Source: Quercus robur (taxonomy: Eukaryota > Streptophyta > Magnoliopsida > Fagales > Fagaceae). From it: a stretch of DNA of 64,000 nt. Where the stretch lies: NCBI RefSeq assembly GCF_932294415.1, contig NC_065544.1:24217351-24281350 (forward strand), written 5' to 3'. Below are positions 5,052 through 62,265 of the stretch, one piece after another. The first letter of the stretch is position 1. Each line of letters opens with the position of its first letter. Under the pieces are notes generated by a model. It made no database searches. It was not told where the DNA came from and saw only the letters and a list, made by a program, of their open reading frames with translations. The translations under genes were made by a program, and so were the position numbers.

Positions 5052-7593
5052 ATCACAAAATTAATCTTGGTCCACTAAACATAATCCTTAAACCCTAAAT
5101 AAAAAGTTAAAAGCCCAAATAACAACAATAAAAAAATGGCCCAAATAACAGTAAAAATAGACCAATATCAACAAGATTATGCTAAACAACAACAAATGAA
5201 CAAAATATTCAACAAAAAGTTCATTAAAATAAAAAATAAAAATAAAAACTCTTAATCAATCGGACTCATAACTAGTTCAACCCATTGCATAAAAAATATT
5301 CATAATTTCATTTTTCCAAAAAAAAAAGAAAATGGTACCAAGAGACATAATGTGGCCGTGAGTTCTCTTTGGTAGTGCCAAAAGCTCTACTCTCCTCGGC
5401 TTTGCAGTCACAACAGCTTTGCACTCCTCGACAACTCGGTTTGCAATTGCAACATGTATTATATGTTTGCTCTATCTCTCTCTCCATTTTTCTCTTATCT
5501 ATAATTATTTCATACTCTGTCTCACTTTGTTCCTCTCATCTCAACATTTTATTTTTCACAAAATCTCTTATCAGTCTCGTTTTTCCTTTTAATTTTGTTA
5601 GTAGAAGGAATTGTAAAACTTCATGTATTTTTATGGTAATAACATTATTTTTGATGGCTTATATTTGTGGTTAACCATATACTTCTCAACAAAAGGAACC
5701 CAAAAAAAAAAAAAGGCCGCCTTATATGTATAGGTTTTTTCTCCATTGTCATATGATGCATTGTGAGTATATTAAAATTATGTACATAATTTTTCTTTAT
5801 AAGAAATTATATTAAAGTTTTAAGAAGATTTTTTTTTTTGGAGAATCTAATTTTAAGAATTATGTATATGTAACTCGTCAATAATCCGTATAATGTACAT
5901 AAAATTTTATCAAATTAATATTCATAAATGATACATATTTTAATGTATATCAACTAATAAAAAGCCCAATGAGAAAGTTTGAACAAAAGATATGATGTGA
6001 AAATACCAAATGTAATTTAATGGAACTTGTTCAGTTTTGGAATTTAATATTTTCGTAAAATAGTGAGTTCTAATTAGTTTTAACTTTCATGTAATAAAAA
6101 CCAAATTAAAAATATGCATTATAATTATGGTGTGAAAAGCTATGAGTTTTCAATAACTTATATATAACAACACAAGAAATAGTGAAACCCTAAAGATTTG
6201 CCTTCTACAAACTGTGATGGCATTAAGTGAACATCCACTCATTTAGTGTTTATATTTCCTTTTTTTTTTCTCTCTCTCTCTCTTTTTTATTCCATCTTAT
6301 GCCATGTGATGCGTTAGGAGTACACTAAAATTATTAATATTAACTTTATAACCAAAGCTTCAAGAAAGTATTCTAACAAAATCCTATTACTATTATGAAA
6401 ACAAATTTATGCTTCTTGCTATTTTCTGCTCCTGATAAAATAAAGACATTGAATCAAACAAAACATGTACATGAAATTAGAGGATGGTGGGCTCATGAAC
6501 AGCTAGAGAGGCATGGGATAGATAAATAAAATATCACAAGTATCTCCAAACAGTAAAAGGATCCTACACTTTGGGGGAGCACTTCAAATTTCAATGAGAA
6601 AAGAAACAAATCAACAGCCTTATTAAAGGGCCACTGCTTATCCATGGTGGAGGACATGCTCATTATTTGTATCAGTGCAATTGAGAAACCGCTAAACATA
6701 GCAAATTTCAACCATTTTACTAACAAAAATGGACCTACCAATCAGGCCCCAATAAAATGAATTTTTCTACTTCATTAATTAAAGGAAGAAGAAGAAGCGT
6801 TGAACACCCAATTGCATGACTACAAGAAAGACGACACTCTTAAATACAATAGGGACCCATGTACCAAACTTTATTGAATTGAGAGGCATGTGCATTCGTA
6901 CGATTTATTATTAACACAAAATCATCCCTATTAACCCAATCAGAATTCAGAAGTTATTGCAATCAGATTATACATTTATTGTTCATCATATGGTCAACTA
7001 CTGGTCATGATGTGCCCTAATTTTATTTATTTATTTTCCAATTCATATTGAAAGTGACCATGATGGAAAGTAATTCTTTAGTTGGTTGCGTTTATTTTAT
7101 TTACTAAATATTTATTAGTTTAACAATTTCATTTTTTCTTCCGTTTAAGTCAAAAAAAAAAAATCCTTTTTAAGAAAAAATTAAACATGGGCTATTAACA
7201 CTCCTACCAAATCCAATAATTATGACAACGAGAGATGAGAATATGCAACACCACCACATATGATAGTTATGAAAATAAATATGGAATTGGTTGTGATCCT
7301 AAAATAACTCCATGTTATAAGGTTCCTCTAACATATGTGATGGGTTCACGGCAGCACATCTTATTTATATTTTAAAGGGTATTACTTACACTTGTTACCG
7401 AAAATAATGTTGAAAAGATTAAGTATTATGAGTCACCTAATTAAAGAAGTATAAAATAATAAATAAATAAATAAATCTTAAAACTTCATGAGAAAAATAC
7501 TCTTAATGGACTCACATGAAATAATATTCTTTCACTAAATTGGCTCCACTTTATTTCAATTAAAAAAATAGGAATAAAAAACCTTTAATATAT

Positions 7594-7661
<68 letters not shown>

Positions 7662-8051
7662 CGGTTCAAGTAGTGAAAATGGGCCCAATTTGATGAATAT
7701 TAACTACCAATTTTAAAACCTTCTATAAAATTAGTGCTCATTTGGAAGAGTTGAATTTCATTGACTTATTGGACTTAAAAACAAAAATTAAATAAAAAGT
7801 ACAATTGTACCTAAAAGAAATTTTTTGAAAGGAAAATTGTACTTAAAGATAAAATGCTAAACTAATAAGTACTTTTTTTTTTTTTTTTTTTTGAGAAGAT
7901 GTACTAATAAGTACTTACATAAGCCTTTGTAGTGTATTCTTCATAATAAAATAACTAAATTTTACGTTGGTTGTGAATCTATCGCAACTTTCTCCTTTTC
8001 CAAGATTGAGACTAGTTATGAACACAATATATGACACAAAGCACAATTATA
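5052..8051. other. Gene-poor spacer with microsatellites
   Basis: No supported gene. The apparent 101-codon frame at 5369 begins at a TTG and resembles no protein I recognise. The tract includes a TA run followed by a GA run at 7588-7657. Confidence 0.5.
7588..7657 (+). repeat. Compound (TA)n(GA)n microsatellite
   Basis: A TA run with one interruption passes directly into a GA run of about 32 bp. Confidence 0.9.
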
Positions 8052-9391: not shown

Positions 9392-12300
9392 ATGTGGGAG
9401 GAGTCAGAGACTGAGTCAGTTAGAGGCCGAGACTATGGAAATGGAGTTCTTAGTTCAAGCAAGCATGGCGTCAAGACTGACGGGTTTGAGCTAAGGGGCC
9501 AGTCTTGGTATGTATGATAAAGTACAAAGCATCTTAGTACTGGTAGATAAATGCTTTATTAGAACTATTAGCGTAGTCCAGAGCATGTCAGGTTCAGTAA
9601 GTTAACTTTTGTTCAGTACAAATGCAAAATAGTATCTTGCTATAATTTTTTTTATAATTTAATTCATCCAAAATGGTGTTTGTACGGTTTAAATCTAATA
9701 CAGCTATGAATTTTTCCTTTATTCATGCTAGTATGTATCTGGTTTTTTAGAAAAATCTGCAGAACTGAGACTTTGTAAACTTCTGAAGCATGTGGTGTGT
9801 TTGTTTTGTATGCAGGTATGTTGCAACTGATGTTCCAAGTGACCTTCTAGTTCAAGTTGGGGGTGTTAATTTCCACCTGCATAAGGTAGTTAAATTTCTG
9901 CCAAACACAAATGGTTGAATAATAATTCTTGTGGCTCCAGAATTCAAAGTTAATTACTATTAACTTATGTATTGATTTCATGGCTTTTTCTCTCTCTCTT
10001 CTTGTGCAAGTATCCCTTGCTTTCTCGGAGTGGAAAGATGAACAGACTCATATATGAATCACGCGACCCGGAGTTGAATATGATAGCTCTAGATGACCAA
10101 CCCGGTGGACCTGAGGCTTTTGAGTTAGCAGCAAAATTCTGCTATGGAATTGCTGTTGATCTGACAGCAGCCAATATTTCTGGCCTAAGATGTGCTGCAG
10201 AGTATCTTGAAATGACAGAGGACTTGGAAGAAGGAAATCTTATATTCAAAACTGAAGCATTTCTAAGCTATGTAGTATTATCCTCATGGAGGGACTCTAT
10301 AGTGGTGCTAAAAAGCTGTGAGAAGCTCTCACCATGGGCAGAGAACCTTCAAATTGTCCGAAGATGCAGTGAGTCCATTGCTTGGAAAGCTTGTGCCAAT
10401 CCAAAAGGAATAAGATGGGCGTACACTGGAAAACTCCCAAAAGCTTCCAGCCCAAAGTGGAATGACATGAAGGACTCCAGTCCCAGTAAAAATCAGCATG
10501 TTCCTCCCGATTGGTGGTTTGAAGATGTTTCAATCCTTAGGATTGATCACTTTGTCAGGGTCATCACTGCAATTAAGGTAAAGGGAATGAGATTTGAACT
10601 GATTGGAGCTTCAATAACGCATTATGCAGCTAAATGGCTTCCAGGTTTGATAAGTGATGGGACAGGGCCAGGAGATGAAGGAAGCAATATCAGCAACAGT
10701 AATACTAGTGGCAGCAGCAATAGCTGGAAGGGAGGACTTCATATGATTGTTGCAGGAACCAAAGATGATCTTCCACCTGTTCAGGCCAAAGAACAGCGAA
10801 TGATCATTGAGAGCCTCATCAGCATAATTCCACCACCGAAGGATAGTGTCTCATGCAGCTTCCTACTTCGGCTCTTGAGAATGGCAAACATGTTGAAAGT
10901 GGCTCCAGCTTTGGTAACTGAATTGGAGAAACGAGTGGGAATGCAATTTGAACAGGCTACATTGGCAGATCTTCTTATTCCTTCTTACAATAAAAGTGAG
11001 ACAATGTATGATGTGGATCTTGTCCACAGGCTTTTGGAGCATTTTCTAATTCAAGAGCAGACAGAAAGTTCAAGTCCCAGCAGTCAATCTTTTTCTGATA
11101 AACACATGTATGAAGGTAGTCAAAGGGGTTCTACTCCAAATGCTAAGATGAGAGTTTCAAGGCTTGTTGACAGTTATCTTACAGAGGTGTCCAGAGATAG
11201 AAGCCTTTCCCTAACAAAGTTTCAGGTACTCGCAGAAGCTTTGCCTGAATCTGCAAGGACCTGTGATGATGGACTTTACAGAGCAATTGATTCTTACCTC
11301 AAGGTAATTCCTTACTCCTAAAGTTACGATGTCTAGTTTAAAAAATTGCTCAATATAGACTGTACCTCATACATTAATCTAGTGAATATATGGAACTCCT
11401 TTGTAGTAGTGCCCGCTAGCTTATGTCTACTTATTAGCATACTTGATTAATTTAAGCAGTTTAGTTGTAAGAATCAAGATTTTTACTGCTTTAAATCAGA
11501 GGAACTCTACAATTCATTTGCATATTTTATACGCAAGCATCATGTTACAAATATGAGCATGCACTCATGCCTGTCTACCAGAAATTCAGAATTATAATGG
11601 AAATTTTTAATATCCACATATATTATAAATATGTGGATGGTAAATGGGAAAACTTCAGTCGGATCAAAAACAGGAAACGTTCAGAGGAATGCAAGAAACC
11701 ATAATCTGAGCCAAACTATTGCCATGTGAAAAACTTTGTCCTCCAGTAAATCAAAATAGAATGTAGGCAGTACTCATTCTACAATCATAGTGTCATATAT
11801 AAACAGACATGCTTATTCTATAATAATATCATATATATGCTCAATCATGATGCAAGTAATGTTATGCTTTTGTTTGTAAAATCCATGTTATGAGATCCAT
11901 AAACATGTATAGTAAACAAAATCTCATGATTTGACTGGATTAAAAGAGAAAAGTAATAATAACAAACAATGTTATTTGCCTTTGGTTTGGAGAAATGAAA
12001 AATATATTCTTGAAAAAGTATGAATATTTATGTGCTTCAGCCCCATGATGAGAGTATTGGAGTTCCATGTACCCTGCAAATTCTCTTTATTTGAATTCTT
12101 ATCCATCTAGCAAAATAACAGGCCCATCCAACACTTTCTGAGCATGAAAGGAAGCGACTTTGCCGTGTGATGGATTGCCAGAAGCTCTCAATTGATGCAT
12201 GCATGCATGCTGCCCAAAATGAACGCCTTCCATTAAGAGTTGTTGTGCAAGTCCTCTTCTCTGAGCAGGTAAAGATAAGCAATGCACTAGCCAACAGCTC

Positions 12301-12670
12301 CCTGAAAGAAACTAGTGAATCTCTCTACCAGCCAATAATTTCAAACCGGAAAACACTACTTGAAGGAACACCACAATCATTCCAGGAAGGATGGACAGCC
12401 GCTAAAAAGGACATTAACACCCTCAAGTTTGAGCTGGAAAGTGTTAAAGCTAAGTACCTTGAGCTGCAGAATGACATGGAGAATCTGCAGAGACAGTTTG
12501 ATAAAATGTTAAAGCAGAAACAGACATCAGCATGGAGCAGTGGGTGGAAGAAACTGAGCAAACTTACAAAGACGACTACTTTAGAAAACCAGGAAATTGG
12601 GCCTCAGCTCTCAACTGCAGCAGAACAGACTAGAAAGACTCCTAGAAGGTGGAGAAATTCAATATCCTGA
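9392..12670 (+). CDS. NPH3/RPT2-family BTB/POZ protein, At1g67900-like
   Basis: Four coding exons are inferred: 9392-9507, 9816-9885, 10011-11303 and 12122-12670, encoding about 675 residues. All introns begin GT and end AG and keep frame. Exon 1 starts MWEESETES, matching the At1g67900 type. A BTB/POZ fold begins near residue 47 ([20 protein letters not shown]). The NPH3 domain begins near residue 229 ([19 protein letters not shown]) and runs to about residue 540. A coiled coil follows ([20 protein letters not shown]), and the tail ends RRWRNSIS. Family members act as plasma-membrane-associated signalling adaptors or CUL3 E3 ligase substrate receptors, notably in phototropism. The role of this clade is less well known. 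No truncation seen. Confidence 0.93.
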
Positions 12671-24244: not shown

Positions 24245-25318
24245 CTATTGATGGCTCACCCCTAGAGATTTGGCTTTGAGCTTCAAAATCTTCAGGTAAT
24301 CTATAGCTTCATCAATAACCAGCAATGGGTCCTTTCCCTCTGCACCAGGAATTATGCCCTCAAGAATTCTCAATGTCTGACGGACCCTATCCCTTTTAAA
24401 ACACATTTTACCCAAAATAGATCCTGCTTCCTCACCTTGGTTCTGGCCAATGGCATAGCCTGATTCCGCATCACTATCATACTCGAGAGATCTGTCCAGA
24501 TTTACTGAGCTAGCAGTGTCAACAGGCGATGACTGTTTGTATCCACCATTGAGCAATTTCTGCCTTTTGATTGGGCCTTCCAAGCCAGCATCTTCCTCTG
24601 TTATGAATTCATCATATTCATGTTTCTCATAACTCGGAGAATGGCCTGTACTTGCTACTTCATCATCTTCACTATCATCCTCATCATCATAATCGTCATC
24701 AGAATAAAGCAAGGCATTAATTTCTTCTGTATCCTCATGGAACTCACTTTCATCACGAGTTATCTTATTCTCACCAGACTCTTCATGCAAAAAGTACTTG
24801 CTTGGATCAATTCGACCCCTTCCATGCACTTGCTCTTTCTCATCCACATTATAACAACAAATTGGTGTAGTGGCAGTAGTTGGATTCTGAACAGGGGGAA
24901 AACCAGAATTATAAATTAGTCTTGTTTGATTTCCACACTGATCAAAAATAAGGAATCTCGTTGGAGAAGACCCAGAGTTTGCATTTGGCACAGCCTTCCC
25001 ATCAAGCCCATAACATAACACAGATTGTTTTTCTTTATGATATGGGTTAGGAGTAGGAAGCAAGCTCTGCAAGTGAAGTGGCAAACTTTGAAGCAATCCA
25101 TGAGCTTCATTTGTTTGTCCTGTCTTCAAGTCTGGTATACCAGGAACCACAACCCCAGGCAATGCCACACGGGCAGAGGACACACAAATGCCAGGATTTA
25201 TACATGCTGGCAAACTTTCCTGTTGCCTTGGCTGTAGTGTCGTGCTCATGAAATTCAGTTCAGATGCTTGCCAAGCAAGATGCTGTGGATAAAGCCGAGG
25301 CTCAGTGGCCTTAACCAT
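24245..25318 (-). CDS. SAC51: SAC51-type bHLH transcription regulator
   Basis: A single uninterrupted coding exon of 357 residues runs from ATG at 25318 to TAG at 24245. The carboxyl end (about 299-357) is the atypical bHLH of the SAC51/SACL group: CFKRDRVRQTLRILEGIIPG followed by DEAIDYLKILKLKAKSLG. The basic part lacks the usual H-E-R E-box contacts, as in this clade. A strongly acidic stretch (SDDDYDDEDDSEDDE) precedes it. In Arabidopsis SAC51 restores stem growth in the thermospermine-deficient acl5 mutant, and its translation is repressed by a conserved leader uORF. The same uORF is present here at 25548-25845, which settles the family. Whether it is SAC51 or a SACL paralogue needs phylogeny. 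Confidence 0.93.
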   Translation of the reverse strand: MVKATEPRLYPQHLAWQASELNFMSTTLQPRQQESLPACINPGICVSSARVALPGVVVPGIPDLKTGQTNEAHGLLQSLPLHLQSLLPTPNPYHKEKQSVLCYGLDGKAVPNANSGSSPTRFLIFDQCGNQTRLIYNSGFPPVQNPTTATTPICCYNVDEKEQVHGRGRIDPSKYFLHEESGENKITRDESEFHEDTEEINALLYSDDDYDDEDDSEDDEVASTGHSPSYEKHEYDEFITEEDAGLEGPIKRQKLLNGGYKQSSPVDTASSVNLDRSLEYDSDAESGYAIGQNQGEEAGSILGKMCFKRDRVRQTLRILEGIIPGAEGKDPLLVIDEAIDYLKILKLKAKSLGVSHQ

Positions 25319-27590
25319 CCAGGTAAGTAATCACCTAAAAATGAGCAGGAAAAAAGATAAGCCATTCAAAAATGAAACAAGATCATTATAGTTGCAATAT
25401 CAGCTGGACAGTTGAAACCTACCAGGAGAAGGATTGGAGCTTTAATCTGGAATATTAAAACGCTTGCTGCTTCTTTTAGGAACACAGAATAGAAAAAGAA
25501 AATCTACGAATTCCAGCCGAATTTGATAACGAAAATTCAGAATCAATCTACGTTACAGGTTTAAGCAAATGACGGAAATACTCAGCCTGGAAAAGAGCAA
25601 TAAGAACACAGCATTATTAATAACTTCTTGATATGAAAAGCTAATTAATTGATCATGGAAACAATTATCCAGGGGAAGAAGAATGGAATGAGAGCAAAAA
25701 TGTAAAGGTTTATTGTACTCACCTGGCAATCCTGTAATGGTTGAAAGCATGCAATCACTCTCACTATAATTGTAGGTTTTCCTGCAATTCCACTCTCATG
25801 TTTTAATGCCCGAAATCTAGTTTGGCTCGCTGCTTGGCACACCATAACTTCTTTCAACCCTTGACTAAAAAACTTGATTTATCTGACGACTATAGAGACA
25901 CGAAACAAATACCAAAGAACAGAGAGCAAGAACTGGGGAAAGGTAGATATTAAGCAAAAAAGCAGACTAGATTGACAAACAAAATGAGATTAAACACAAA
26001 CGGGGTTCTGTTTGAGTACTTGAGTTCTAAGAAGAGCTTGTCACAAAAAACCAAGACGAGAGAACAATAAGAAGAGCTTTGGGTTCTAGCTAGGTTTTGT
26101 TTCTATCTTTTCAACTAATCCTATGCATGTCACAAGAAACGATGAAAAATCGATTGGATCCCATGGAAATTTGAGTTAAGAATAATAGGCCAAGAGAAAG
26201 AAAAAGTAGGACTCGCTTAAGTAATAATTTACAGAATAACCCTGCAATATAAGTTTAGGCGCACGACTTTGCGGAACACATCAACCGATAAACTCAACCA
26301 AGGCATACTGTTCTCCTCCTTGAAATACCGAATTATCCACGATTGCTAAATCTGGTGCTATGTTTTGAAACTGATATTCCTGGAAAAAAACATATATATG
26401 TAGCAAAAGAATATATCTATAAGATCAAAGGATGCGTAAAATTATCAAAATGATAAAGAGAAAGCATTACCAAAGTTATATATGAAGAATCTCGACACAA
26501 AACAAATGCCTCATCTAGTTGCTAAGATAATGTTAGGAGATTTAGAAAAAATAACTTTAAACTAAGCCATACAAACCCATCTTGTCTCTCCGGACCAGAG
26601 TACTTCCATAATTGAAAAAACTAAGAACAAAAAAACATAAGGGTAGTTCTTTTAACACTGATCCCATAAACATTTTTCAAAGACAAGATCTGGAAACAAT
26701 TTTTACTAGCTTTCAGTGCAGAAAGTATTTGGTAATCCAGTTCAAAAGAATAAATTTTCGGCACAGAAATAAACAAATTTCAGAGAATTTTCATTTTCAG
26801 GTTGCAATCTTCACCTAATTGGATCCAATTATGAAATGGGTGTGGATATTAATAAACTAACATAATTATCGTAATTAGATTACCAAGAAATCCTGGACCT
26901 CCACTCAACTATGACTTGAATTTAACTCAGCTTAGTTGAATTATCATTTTTCAAGCAAAAAAAACTAAAACCAAAACCCCACACACAACACACATATGCA
27001 TATATCAGATTGAAAATGATCATATGAAATCCTAATGATTGAAGTTAAGTATGAAAGTTAGAAATTTAACTGCTAAGAAATTCAACACTATCTCAATTTT
27101 TTTACAACCAGATAAAGAAAAAAAATATTGAAAAATCTCATAACTTGTACGAAAATCTTACTATTCACAACAAAAACTCAGAGCTTGTAAGAAAATTGTC
27201 CCAAGCTCTTCAATATCAAGTTCAATTATTGATTAAAAAACAGTAAAAGAAAATTCCTTGCAGCTGAGTCAGGCACAATCAAATAGATCAGATTTTCGAG
27301 ATTCAAATTATTAATCTTTCTTTTTCTTTTTTTCTCAGAAGCCAAACAGGGAATACATACCCCACCAAACTAAAATTAAAAAAAAAAAATCACAAATTTG
27401 AAAAAGGAAAAAAATAAATAAATTCAATAACTTACAGTGGAATTAGAGAAAGCTCTGAAAGATCTTGTTTTGGAATCTGATCTGAAATGGAAAAAGTATC
27501 AAAGTTTTCAATCAGAATAGGAGAGAGAGAAAATGAAGAGAAAAGAGTGAGAGATAGTGCAAATGCTTTGAGAGAGCCTATAAAGAGGTG
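25319..27590 (-). promoter_or_regulatory. Intron-containing 5' leader of the SAC51-like gene
   Basis: Inferred leader exons are about 27436-27590 (donor GTAAGT), 25723-25932 (acceptor after a pyrimidine tract ending CCCCAG), 25423-25586, and 25334 onward into the coding exon. The last leader intron (25335-25422) would be only 88 bp, from GTAGGT to TTTTTAG. The first intron is about 1.5 kb. Boundaries outside the conserved uORF are my reading of splice signals and could be off. RNA would decide. Confidence 0.6.
25548..25845 (-). CDS. Conserved peptide uORF of the SAC51 leader
   Basis: A 53-residue uORF lies upstream of the bHLH frame and is split by one intron. Exon part 25723-25845 encodes 41 residues starting MVCQAASQTRFRALKHE and ending CFQPLQDCQ. 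Part 25548-25586 encodes AEYFRHLLKPVT and a stop. The donor (CAG|GTGAGT) and acceptor (TTCCAG) are strong and the frame is kept. The peptide matches the known SAC51-family uORF, which stalls ribosomes and is relieved by thermospermine. An upstream in-frame TTG is ignored. The peptide looks complete, so translational control is probably retained. Confidence 0.93.
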
Positions 27591-27610
27591 AGTTTTGTTT
27601 GGGAACGCTA

Positions 27611-27623
27611 GGACTATATAGGG
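27611..27623 (-). promoter_or_regulatory. Probable TATA box of the SAC51-like gene
   Basis: The minus strand reads CCCTATATAGTCC, about 30 bp upstream of the proposed leader start. It is followed by a CT-rich stretch typical of plant transcription starts. Confidence 0.55.
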
Positions 27624-41523: not shown

Positions 41524-42492
41524 TCACAAATCCTTGAATAGTTTCCGGACCTGTTCAAGTGTGACAAATAGCACCACAGTGAATGGACCTTGCCTTGAGA
41601 TAGTAGGGATAAAACCCTTGTACAAAGCCATAACCCCCTCTGTCCTCACAGTCTTCATGGCACAATCCAATGCACCAGAGTAAGGTGCCACTCCACCTGC
41701 CTCCAACTTCATATTCATCACTCTAGTCTTGATCACATCGATTGGATTCGAAGCCACCGAGGCCACAAACCCAGCAGCAAAGCTCGCCGTCACGTGGGTC
41801 CCGATCCCATCACTCATCACACCCTTTTCCAATATCATCTCCTTCGCCTGATCATAAGTTGCGAGCTGAGAAGCCGTCACAATCATCGCGCGGTTCACAG
41901 TTAGAGCCGAGCCGCGCCACAGGCTAGCAATCCCTTCTTGCTTTGACATTTGACCTATTGCATCGACCACACTCTTGTAGCTCCGGCGCTGCTCAATAGG
42001 GAGACGTCCATCGGCTTGCATGCGGACCATTGCCACGTCGGCCGGGTTCCCGACCGCCGCGCCGACACTGCCGGCAACAAGGCCAGCTACTATCTTTTTC
42101 ATGATTGGTAATTTGGCTGCAGCGTCTGAATCAGAATGATGATCAGACCATTTCTGTTTTAGGATTTCGTAAAGGCCCATGCGGGTGGTGGAGTACAGTG
42201 TTTGGCGGAGGATGGTGGCGGAGACACCGGAGAAAAGGGCGGTAGCGCCTTCGGATTTGACGATTTGGGTCCCGATGGAAACAAGTCCAACGCGAGGTGG
42301 TGGTGCGACGTGGAGAGATACGTATCCATTTGGGGTGTTTAGAGCAGCAACTGTGGGACGATAGGGCTGTACTAGGGCAGGATTGGATTCGCCTTGAAGT
42401 TGCATTCGGACCTTGATTAGGTCAAGAGGGTGAGTGGAAGCTCCAGCAATTATTGAAGCAATGCCTCCTTCAACGAAGCCTTTCAAACCCAT
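41524..42492 (-). CDS. DIC: Mitochondrial dicarboxylate carrier (DIC/PUMP5 type)
   Basis: A single exon of 322 residues, ATG at 42492 and TGA at 41524. It is a mitochondrial carrier family protein with three repeats. Each has the Px[DE]xx[KR] signature at its first helix: HPLDLIK (P at 22), NPADVAMVR (P at 150) and NPIDVIK (P at 250). The start MGLKGFVEGGIASIIAG, the segment LRQTLYSTTRMGLYE and the end FVTLEQVRKLFKDL match the plant DIC1-3 group (also called PUMP4-6). In Arabidopsis these exchange malate, oxaloacetate, succinate and phosphate or sulfate across the inner mitochondrial membrane. GC content is higher than the surroundings. Lack of introns is normal for this group. Which paralogue it is needs a tree. 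Confidence 0.95.
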   Translation of the reverse strand: MGLKGFVEGGIASIIAGASTHPLDLIKVRMQLQGESNPALVQPYRPTVAALNTPNGYVSLHVAPPPRVGLVSIGTQIVKSEGATALFSGVSATILRQTLYSTTRMGLYEILKQKWSDHHSDSDAAAKLPIMKKIVAGLVAGSVGAAVGNPADVAMVRMQADGRLPIEQRRSYKSVVDAIGQMSKQEGIASLWRGSALTVNRAMIVTASQLATYDQAKEMILEKGVMSDGIGTHVTASFAAGFVASVASNPIDVIKTRVMNMKLEAGGVAPYSGALDCAMKTVRTEGVMALYKGFIPTISRQGPFTVVLFVTLEQVRKLFKDL

Positions 42493-42580
42493 TTTGTAGT
42501 TGGATGAGAGTAGAGATCAGAGCAGTGAGGAATGAGAGTTTGAAGTGGTGAGTTGTTGAGAAAGACCAAAAGGGAAAAGC

Positions 42581-42590
42581 ATATTTATAG
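42581..42590 (-). promoter_or_regulatory. Probable TATA box of the carrier gene
   Basis: The minus strand reads CTATAAATAT about 90 bp upstream of the ATG, a good TATA element that would leave a leader of about 60 bp. Confidence 0.65.
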
Positions 42591-42599
42591 CGAGTTAAC

Positions 42600-43810
42600 A
42601 AAGTTACGCGGTCTTCTCTGTGTTTCATTGTTTCTTCTCCTTCGTTTGCGTGTTGTATGACTCTTGACTTAGTCTTGGCAGTTCGGTTTTGACTTTAAGA
42701 GGAAGACACTCAATAATTTTCAAATGAAGTGGTCTGGTGAGTGAGTATGTTGCATATTCTGAAGGTATGTTGCTGAGTAATACACTTAATGGGCACCAAA
42801 TTGGAAAAGACTGGTTCTGATTGACCAGTTAGAGTGAGTCCACCCAAGACTATTTGTGAGCCTGAAGCTTCGCACTCTTCTCCTGTGTCAAAAATCAAAA
42901 TCGAACTGAGGCCATGAAGCCACACAACTACAGACTTTCTATTTCAGAAATTATAATATAATAATTACAATTTTTTTTTTTTTTTTGATAATCAAACAAT
43001 TTTATTAATAAATGAACCATAAACTACATACAAGAAGGCAATATTTTATCTTGCTCAAGAGCTAATATATTACAAAAAACCGAAGGAACAGAGCTAAAAA
43101 CAAAACAACCTGAAAACTTATTTTTAAAAGACCAAAAATCTAAAACATGGGCAGCTTGATTTGAATTGAATAGACTAACAAAAAGCTATCAACTTAGTAG
43201 TATCTGAATATAGAACCTGAATTCTCCGTAAAAATAGAATGGATGGTCCACTAATAGCATTTATATAGATTTTTACATTATTTTCAACAATATCTTAATT
43301 AATATTGTGTAAAATTACAATTATTTATATGCATATATATATATATATATATTTATATATGTATATATGATGTGGCTCCATGATAATAATCATTGGGTCA
43401 CAGAAAGGTTAGTCCAACCCTATCTACAACCCGTTAGCAAAAAGAAAGGGGAAAAAAACAAAGAAAAAAGAAAACCTTATCTCTACAGCCACGAAATTCT
43501 ATAAATGTTTTCTAATCGGAAGCAATGAAATCCAAATAAAATCAGCAAGATACGTTTCTGTCCAATCTAAAGCAAATTTTGCTAGACATTTCGCAGACCT
43601 GATAATAATACGTGTTTAACGTGTCTTGGAATAAAATAGGGTGCTTCGCATGAGGTGTATTGATTGACCCCCACCACCACCGTATATATATGGAGCAATT
43701 CTTAGTAAAATAAAAGTGAGTAATACCCATTTCTCTTACCTAACAAGGGCTTTCTTAATTCAACAAGGGGTTTATTAATTCAAGGTGAGAAATGAACATT
43801 ATTTCCAGAG
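42600..43810. other. Carrier-gene promoter region and spacer
   Basis: A T-run at about 42970-42986 and a TA run at about 43335-43352 are the only simple repeats. No further gene. Confidence 0.4.
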
Positions 43811-60485: not shown

Positions 60486-61726
60486 CTAAAACAGTACACC
60501 TAAGTATGCTTCAAGTGCTAGACTAAAATAGTACAACCAAACATGACAAAAACAATCACTTAAGCAAGAATTTTTGCATGCATCCTCACTGACTATTTGA
60601 TAATCATAGTCATTGGGTGGACAATCCATGTTAATCAACTCTGTGACTGTGATATAGAAATGTTGATCTGACTGCTCCAATCCTTCATCACAAGTTTGTG
60701 GAGCAAAGTTTTGCTTGCATCCTTTTACCTTATTATCTGAATCCAGATAAGCATAACCTGGTAGACAGTTGCAGATTGGTTCCTGATGATAACCTAGTGT
60801 TCAATAGCTATTAAATCCACAAGGTGCTGCACCAACATATAGTGAGAAGGCCTAGCATATATCTGAAGGAATGTTAGATGTAATTGACCATGCTAGAAGC
60901 CACACTCCAGCACTTGTGCCATTGGCCTTGGGGTAAATGTATTGCCTAAAATTTCCATCATAATCTAAAGTTCCTCTCTGAAAGAAATCTATTGTTGAAA
61001 CTGGGTTCTTTGATATAAGGTCCAGTAGAGTTCCATTTCTTGCCATAATGTAGATGTTGCCAGATTGGTTGAAAAGAAACTGAATGCCAGTACCCATTGT
61101 ATTGCTTTCCCAATACTTCTCACAAAATTAAGTGTGACATCAAAAAGGGACAGTACAAGATCTCCATCGGATTGTAGAAGAAATTGGAAGTTTCCAATTG
61201 ATTAATTTGTTTCTGATACACGAGAAACAAGTATGCTGTCTTGATTTAGTACTTGAGTTGGCAATATGGTGGCAGTTGGAGAGTTAAAGCTTTCCCATAA
61301 GTTGACATAATCTTGTCTTGCAAGCACAAAGTTCCCAGTGTTGAGCATGGATACATAGTTAACTCCACTAGCATCAACATCAGCAGCCCAAACCTGCTGC
61401 ATATTTGTGTCGGAGAGAACTAGCTGGCCACCTGTTGTAAGCTCAACTTTGGATCCATTTTGGACTAGATTATTTCCATTGGCTGACCAAATTATGGTTT
61501 TTTCTGGGATTTTGTCAAACCATATAGCTAGTAAAAAGTTTATAGCAAAAATTGGTCGGAATCCAAAAGCAAACTCACCAGATGGTGGATTCCAGGAAGA
61601 GTTATCATCAAGAGCAATGAGATAAGATCCCAAGCTATTGTTTGCATTAGTTTGAGCCAAAGTGGAAGGGGGAAGCAGCCAAAGAAGGAACAAGTAATGG
61701 ATATGGTGTGACAGAGCAAAAGCCAT
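60486..61726 (-). pseudogene. G-type lectin receptor-kinase pseudogene (S-domain only)
   Basis: The frame from ATG 61726 has a signal peptide (HYLFLLWLLPPSTLAQTN). A bulb-type lectin domain follows, with GEFAFGFRPI, LAIWFDKIPEKTIIWSANG and NTGNFVLARQD. It meets a TAA at 61202. Homology continues in other frames. At 60852-61097 is GTGIQFLFNQSGNIYIMARN, with a stop at its end. Then come a cysteine-rich EGF-like part and, at 60486-60680, a PAN-like segment (DCPPNDYDYQIVSEDACKNS). At least one frameshift and several stops are visible. No transmembrane helix or kinase domain follows, so it is 3'-truncated. It matches the LECRK/RLK1 group. Confidence 0.85.

Positions 61727-62265
<539 letters not shown>

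Follow-up and report, generated by a model that had tools for sequence, protein, structure and literature searches.

The window analysed here, a stretch of 64,000 nucleotides from contig NC_065544.1 of Quercus robur, carries a SAC51-family bHLH gene on its minus strand. The main ORF lies in the last exon (25318..24245, minus strand) and encodes 357 amino acids. It matches the Pfam profile PF23173 (bHLH_SAC51) with an E-value of 4.8e-16, scoring 58.9 bits where the cut-off is 28.5, and the domain covers residues 296-350 (24269..24433, minus strand, as derived from the residue numbers). The first-pass annotation had proposed a SAC51-like bHLH gene at this place, with an intact 53-residue family uORF in its leader, interrupted after residue 41 by an intron with strong splice signals. 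The profile match confirms the gene, the coordinates proposed for both the ORF and the uORF are correct, and the reading of the uORF holds for its length, its junction and its predicted splice sites.

Other genes surround this locus. An NPH3-family gene with at least two exons lies at 9954-12670 on the plus strand (PF03000). In Arabidopsis NPH3 adjoins SAC51, and on that basis the NPH3-family gene in the window would suit orthology with Arabidopsis SAC51. A whole-genome NPH3 search gave at least 37 matches, and since none among the matches listed lies near the paralog on contig C38 (described below), a duplicated block shared with that contig is not supported. A mitochondrial carrier gene, presumably encoding a dicarboxylate carrier, occupies 41524-42492 on the minus strand (PF00153, three stretches), and a 52-amino-acid ORF (42628..42470) overlaps its start. 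DIC1 is listed as CPuORF group HG29 (PMC3426882). Finally, an ORF with a B-lectin domain (61205-61750, minus strand, PF01453) may belong to a gene for a receptor-like kinase.

The leader of the SAC51-family gene is predicted to contain three introns, the middle one inside the uORF, which as a sequence prediction agrees with the structure first proposed. Predicted exon 1 (27435..27590, minus strand) has no ATG; its start at 27590 is that of the first-pass annotation, and a TATATAG motif is found at 27620, about 30 nucleotides above it. Predicted intron 1 (26380..27434, minus strand) has the donor ACT|GTAAGT and the acceptor TTTTTTTCCAG. Intron 2 (25587..25722, minus strand, 136 nucleotides, phase 0) is the best supported of the three predictions and is discussed below with the uORF that it splits. 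Predicted intron 3 (25335..25422, minus strand) is located 3' of the uORF stop, and both its donor and its acceptor align in the C38 paralog. A start at 27590 gives a predicted spliced leader of 993 nucleotides, with seven ATGs ahead of the main ATG. The first of them opens a second conserved uORF that was absent from the first-pass annotation. This 25-amino-acid ORF (26306..26229, minus strand, MPWLSLSVDVFRKVVRLNLYCRVIL) is conserved on C38 as the 26-amino-acid MRWWLSLSVDVFRKVISLNLYCRVIL; once a single C38 codon is dropped by hand, the two differ by 10 synonymous and three other changes over 25 codons. It resembles the HG15.1 group, one of the conserved-peptide uORF groups of Hayden and Jorgensen, which is defined in Table 6 of that work by a length of 18-27 amino acids and a C-terminus with eight of nine residues hydrophobic (PMC2075485); the oak peptide has seven hydrophobic residues among its last nine by a manual count that includes C and Y. 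Minor uORFs, all on the minus strand, encode 8 amino acids out of frame within the 25-residue uORF (26255..26281), 17 amino acids with an inner in-frame ATG at 26128 (26111..26164), 11 amino acids out of frame within the 53-residue uORF (25764..25799), and 10 amino acids out of frame from an ATG at 25750 and across intron 2 (25582..25750).

The 53-residue uORF is formed by two segments of the minus strand. Part 1, at the end of exon 2 (25845..25723, 123 nucleotides), encodes residues 1-41 from an ATG in the context GAAGTTATGG, and part 2 (25586..25548, 39 nucleotides) encodes residues 42-53 and the stop. Once joined, they translate into a 53-residue peptide whose C-terminal end is AEYFRHLLKPVT, followed by the stop codon. 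The HG15.3 group, also from Hayden and Jorgensen, is defined by a length of 43-54 amino acids and by the complete conservation of 13 of the 14 C-terminal residues (PMC2075485, Table 6). Compared within the paralogs of its own genome, the oak uORF has both this length and this C-terminus: the last 14 residues are identical at 14/14 positions on C38 and at 13/14 positions in a third gene, on contig C5. Part 2 alone is identical to its C38 counterpart over 12/12 residues and to that of C5 over 11/12 (12/13 for the last 13 residues). Over the whole peptide, 48 of the 53 residues are shared with C38, the differences all being in part 1 (36/41). At the DNA level the two copies agree at 100/123 and 36/39 positions in the two uORF parts, and 23 of the 53 codons differ, 18 by synonymous and five by nonsynonymous changes (dN 0.060, dS 0.94, NG86). 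On these codon changes, with one paralog compared, the peptide is under purifying amino-acid selection, with a dN/dS of about 0.06. Such a substitution pattern leads us to reject the idea that the uORF is a chance ORF or a functionless relic, which has next to no probability given this strong amino-acid constraint and a start, a stop and splice sites that are all intact.

The paralogs come from a search of the Quercus robur genome itself (785.7 Mb, 42 contigs). The peptide found its second copy on C38 with an E-value of 1.3e-16. It overlooked the C5 gene, which was recovered through matches to the PF23173 profile. The profile has eight matches in this genome, seven of them above the curated cut-off, and the window gene ranks first. 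The uORF C-terminus is present upstream of three of the eight, namely the window gene, the C38 gene and the C5 gene at 57.03 Mb, where the 12-residue end is found with E-values of 4e-8 to 3e-7. At the other five loci (C2, two on C6, C35, and C5 at 15.0 Mb) there is no uORF C-terminus in the roughly 7.5-8.5 kb upstream, where the 12-residue end finds at best a five-residue match with an E-value of 0.18. These five are not counted as SAC51-family genes, although four of them score 1.5 to 2.9 bits over the Pfam threshold. The C2 locus and the C6 locus at 12.0 Mb contain the stretch AAMREMIFRIAAMQPIH, which occurs in HECATE-type bHLH proteins.

The C38 paralog (loci L002/L003) thus shares with the window gene its 53-residue uORF, the split point in it and the conserved second uORF, whereas its main protein has diverged, the main-ORF DNA being identical at 677 of 1045 aligned columns, and its intron is only 95 nucleotides long. 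Its uORF reads MVSQAASQTRFRATKHENGIAGSATIIVRVIACFQPLQDCQ^AEYFRHLLKPVT around this intron, where ^ marks the junction. The C5 gene (L016, leader at 6547-7744, plus strand) is inferred to be SACL3-like from its short predicted main ORF of 243 amino acids. Its 48-amino-acid uORF ends in VCQ^AEYFRQLLKPVT, split at the identical point after CQ; it differs from the window gene by a 1051-nucleotide intron, a divergent N-terminal part and an internal in-frame Met.

The splice signals of intron 2 are strong. Donor sites were scored against the consensus MAG|GTRAGT, and the intron 2 donor, CAG|GTGAGT, agrees at 9/9 positions; no other donor in the interval 25300-27600 scores 8/9 or more. At the acceptor, TTCTTATTGCTCTTTTCCAG, 13 of 15 positions are pyrimidines. 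The junction falls in phase 0 after residue 41, at CQ^AEYF, and this split point is common to all three of the genes found with the uORF. Their sharing it indicates that the intron probably predates the duplications that gave rise to them. The first-pass annotation had presented the position as distinctive and as a possible second layer of control. The comparison does not bear this out: the position is common to three genes and, once the intron is trimmed of its splice signals, its alignment between the window and C38 stays within the range of shuffled sequence.

In detail, such a layer of control would make intron 2 a regulated switch, in which retention puts an unrelated tail in place of AEYFRHLLKPVT, so that the repressive peptide is disarmed and bHLH output goes up. 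Retention would indeed produce a 66-amino-acid ORF with a changed C-terminus in the window (59 residues on C38 and 54 on C5), the shared C-terminal sequence matters according to published work (PMC6504692), and the intron position has been kept in all three genes. The whole intron also aligns between the window and C38 somewhat above expectation, with a score of 55.0 against a maximum of 47.5 among 100 mononucleotide shuffles (z 3.4). However, after removal of 8 nucleotides at the donor and 20 at the acceptor, the score of 29.0 falls below the shuffle maximum of 32.0 (z 2.2); the whole-intron likeness is weak, and splice signals could explain it. The read-through tails (VSTINLY... in the window, VCIRLFD... 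on C38, VKVVSYF... on C5) are unlike by eye across the three genes, save for a general hydrophobic character and a leading V, which the GT donor forces in this phase. The intron length varies (136, 95 and 1051 nucleotides), and splice sites as strong as these would favour constitutive splicing. Of the marks expected of regulated retention, neither an intron body conserved between the window and C38 nor a read-through peptide conserved among the three genes is found. Moreover, excerpts of PMC6504692 describe the genomic and the cDNA (intron-less) leaders of Arabidopsis SAC51 as both responsive to thermospermine, so that a splicing choice is not needed for the response. No report of regulated retention or alternative splicing of SAC51 was found in the titles, abstract openings and passages of the literature searched. 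We consider a switch of this kind very unlikely. There is an equally slim chance that selection holds the CQ^AEYF point, which in all three genes lies precisely where the conserved C-terminus begins, by coupling splicing to uORF function, with those retained transcripts that reach ribosomes making a disarmed peptide and escaping repression. The intron inside the uORF is best seen as a long-standing part of the gene structure, most likely spliced out constitutively in the ordinary way.

With a probability of about 0.9, then, the locus is a SAC51-family gene with the standard leader of its family, predicted to comprise three introns, an HG15.1-like uORF and a 53-residue HG15.3 uORF running across exons 2 and 3. 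By comparison with work on Arabidopsis, translation of the 53-residue peptide would keep ribosomes away from the main ORF, the exon junction downstream of the uORF stop would make the mRNA a target of NMD, and truncation of the uORF would derepress the bHLH protein. The last predicted exon junction is 125 nucleotides past the uORF stop, which is the geometry proposed, in passages of PMC4308196, to expose SAC51 mRNA to NMD; excerpts of another study name SAC51 in a common list of the transcripts that NMD affects (PMC3284524). According to a 2025 abstract and accompanying passages, mutating the uORF of any of the four Arabidopsis members, including SACL2, brings about at least partial suppression of acl5, and a SACL2 leader with a mutant uORF raises reporter output (PMC12436307). 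Because the acl5 suppression extends to all four members, repression by the 53-residue peptide appears better founded than a thermospermine response of the window copy.

The uORF had also been labelled as thermospermine-type. The family assignment stands, and the response of this copy is doubtful since its uORF has no internal in-frame ATG: the window and C38 uORFs contain the initial Met only, whereas that of C5 has an internal Met at position 21 (M21). In excerpts of PMC6504692, responsive leaders carry such an ATG in the form of an in-frame internal uORF6, and SACL2-type leaders without uORF6 are unresponsive; the four responsive leaders from outside Arabidopsis all had it, and Arabidopsis SAC51 lost its response when the starts of both uORF4 and uORF6 were removed. 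The uORF may therefore repress constitutively here and be insensitive to thermospermine, as in SACL2-type leaders, with control being transcriptional or through NMD only. This alternative touches only the response and leaves the remainder of the preferred reading intact. The absence of the internal ATG from the window 53-residue uORF speaks for it, but the rule is not absolute: Arabidopsis SAC51 with the uORF6 start alone disrupted was still responsive, and SACL3, which is said to have no uORF6 and to be unresponsive (excerpts of PMC6504692), is among the genes whose uORF inhibition is alleviated by thermospermine, together with SAC51, in the 2025 abstract (PMC12436307). Given these exceptions, we rate responsiveness of the window copy as about even, and constitutive repression just short of that. 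The three oak genes, two whose uORFs have no internal ATG and one with it, form a natural test of the role of this codon in the thermospermine response.

As read from its sequence, this is an ordinary SAC51-family gene with the known regulatory uORF of its family in the leader, and not a new control system, since the intron that splits the uORF is common to two sister genes of the same genome. The analysis usefully adds that the internal ATG is absent from this copy and that a second uORF is conserved, and it provides the comparison of the three genes. The understanding of the system is unchanged, and it gains a genome with three split-uORF SAC51-family genes. Among known systems, passages of PMC11020214 describe in Marchantia a single SAC51 homolog without the conserved uORF and with an unresponsive leader. 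The SACL2-type leaders of rice, poplar and soybean, likened to the window gene by uORF layout alone, have the conserved uORF but no further in-frame uORF inside it (excerpts of PMC6504692). Arabidopsis SAC51 itself (At5g64340, bHLH142, CPuORF group HG15) differs from the window copy by its internal in-frame uORF6, and its leader has six numbered uORFs in excerpts of PMC6504692 against the seven ATGs counted here. Passages of PMC4308196 give the Arabidopsis gene four exons, three leader introns, a coding sequence wholly in exon 4, and a first and a fourth uORF that are conserved, and propose the NMD model; the 53-amino-acid uORF4 was compared with the oak uORF by length, which is equal. Its uORFs are located in exons 2 and 3 (excerpts of PMC6504692), which fits an Arabidopsis uORF4 spanning the same junction; the intron position within that peptide is not stated in the passages found on SAC51 leader structure. 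The oak gene is predicted to have, as in the Arabidopsis leader described in parts of PMC4308196, PMC6504692 and PMC2075485, its main ORF in the last of four exons behind three leader introns, a conserved first uORF, a conserved 53-residue uORF, uORFs in exons 2 and 3, and an exon junction downstream.
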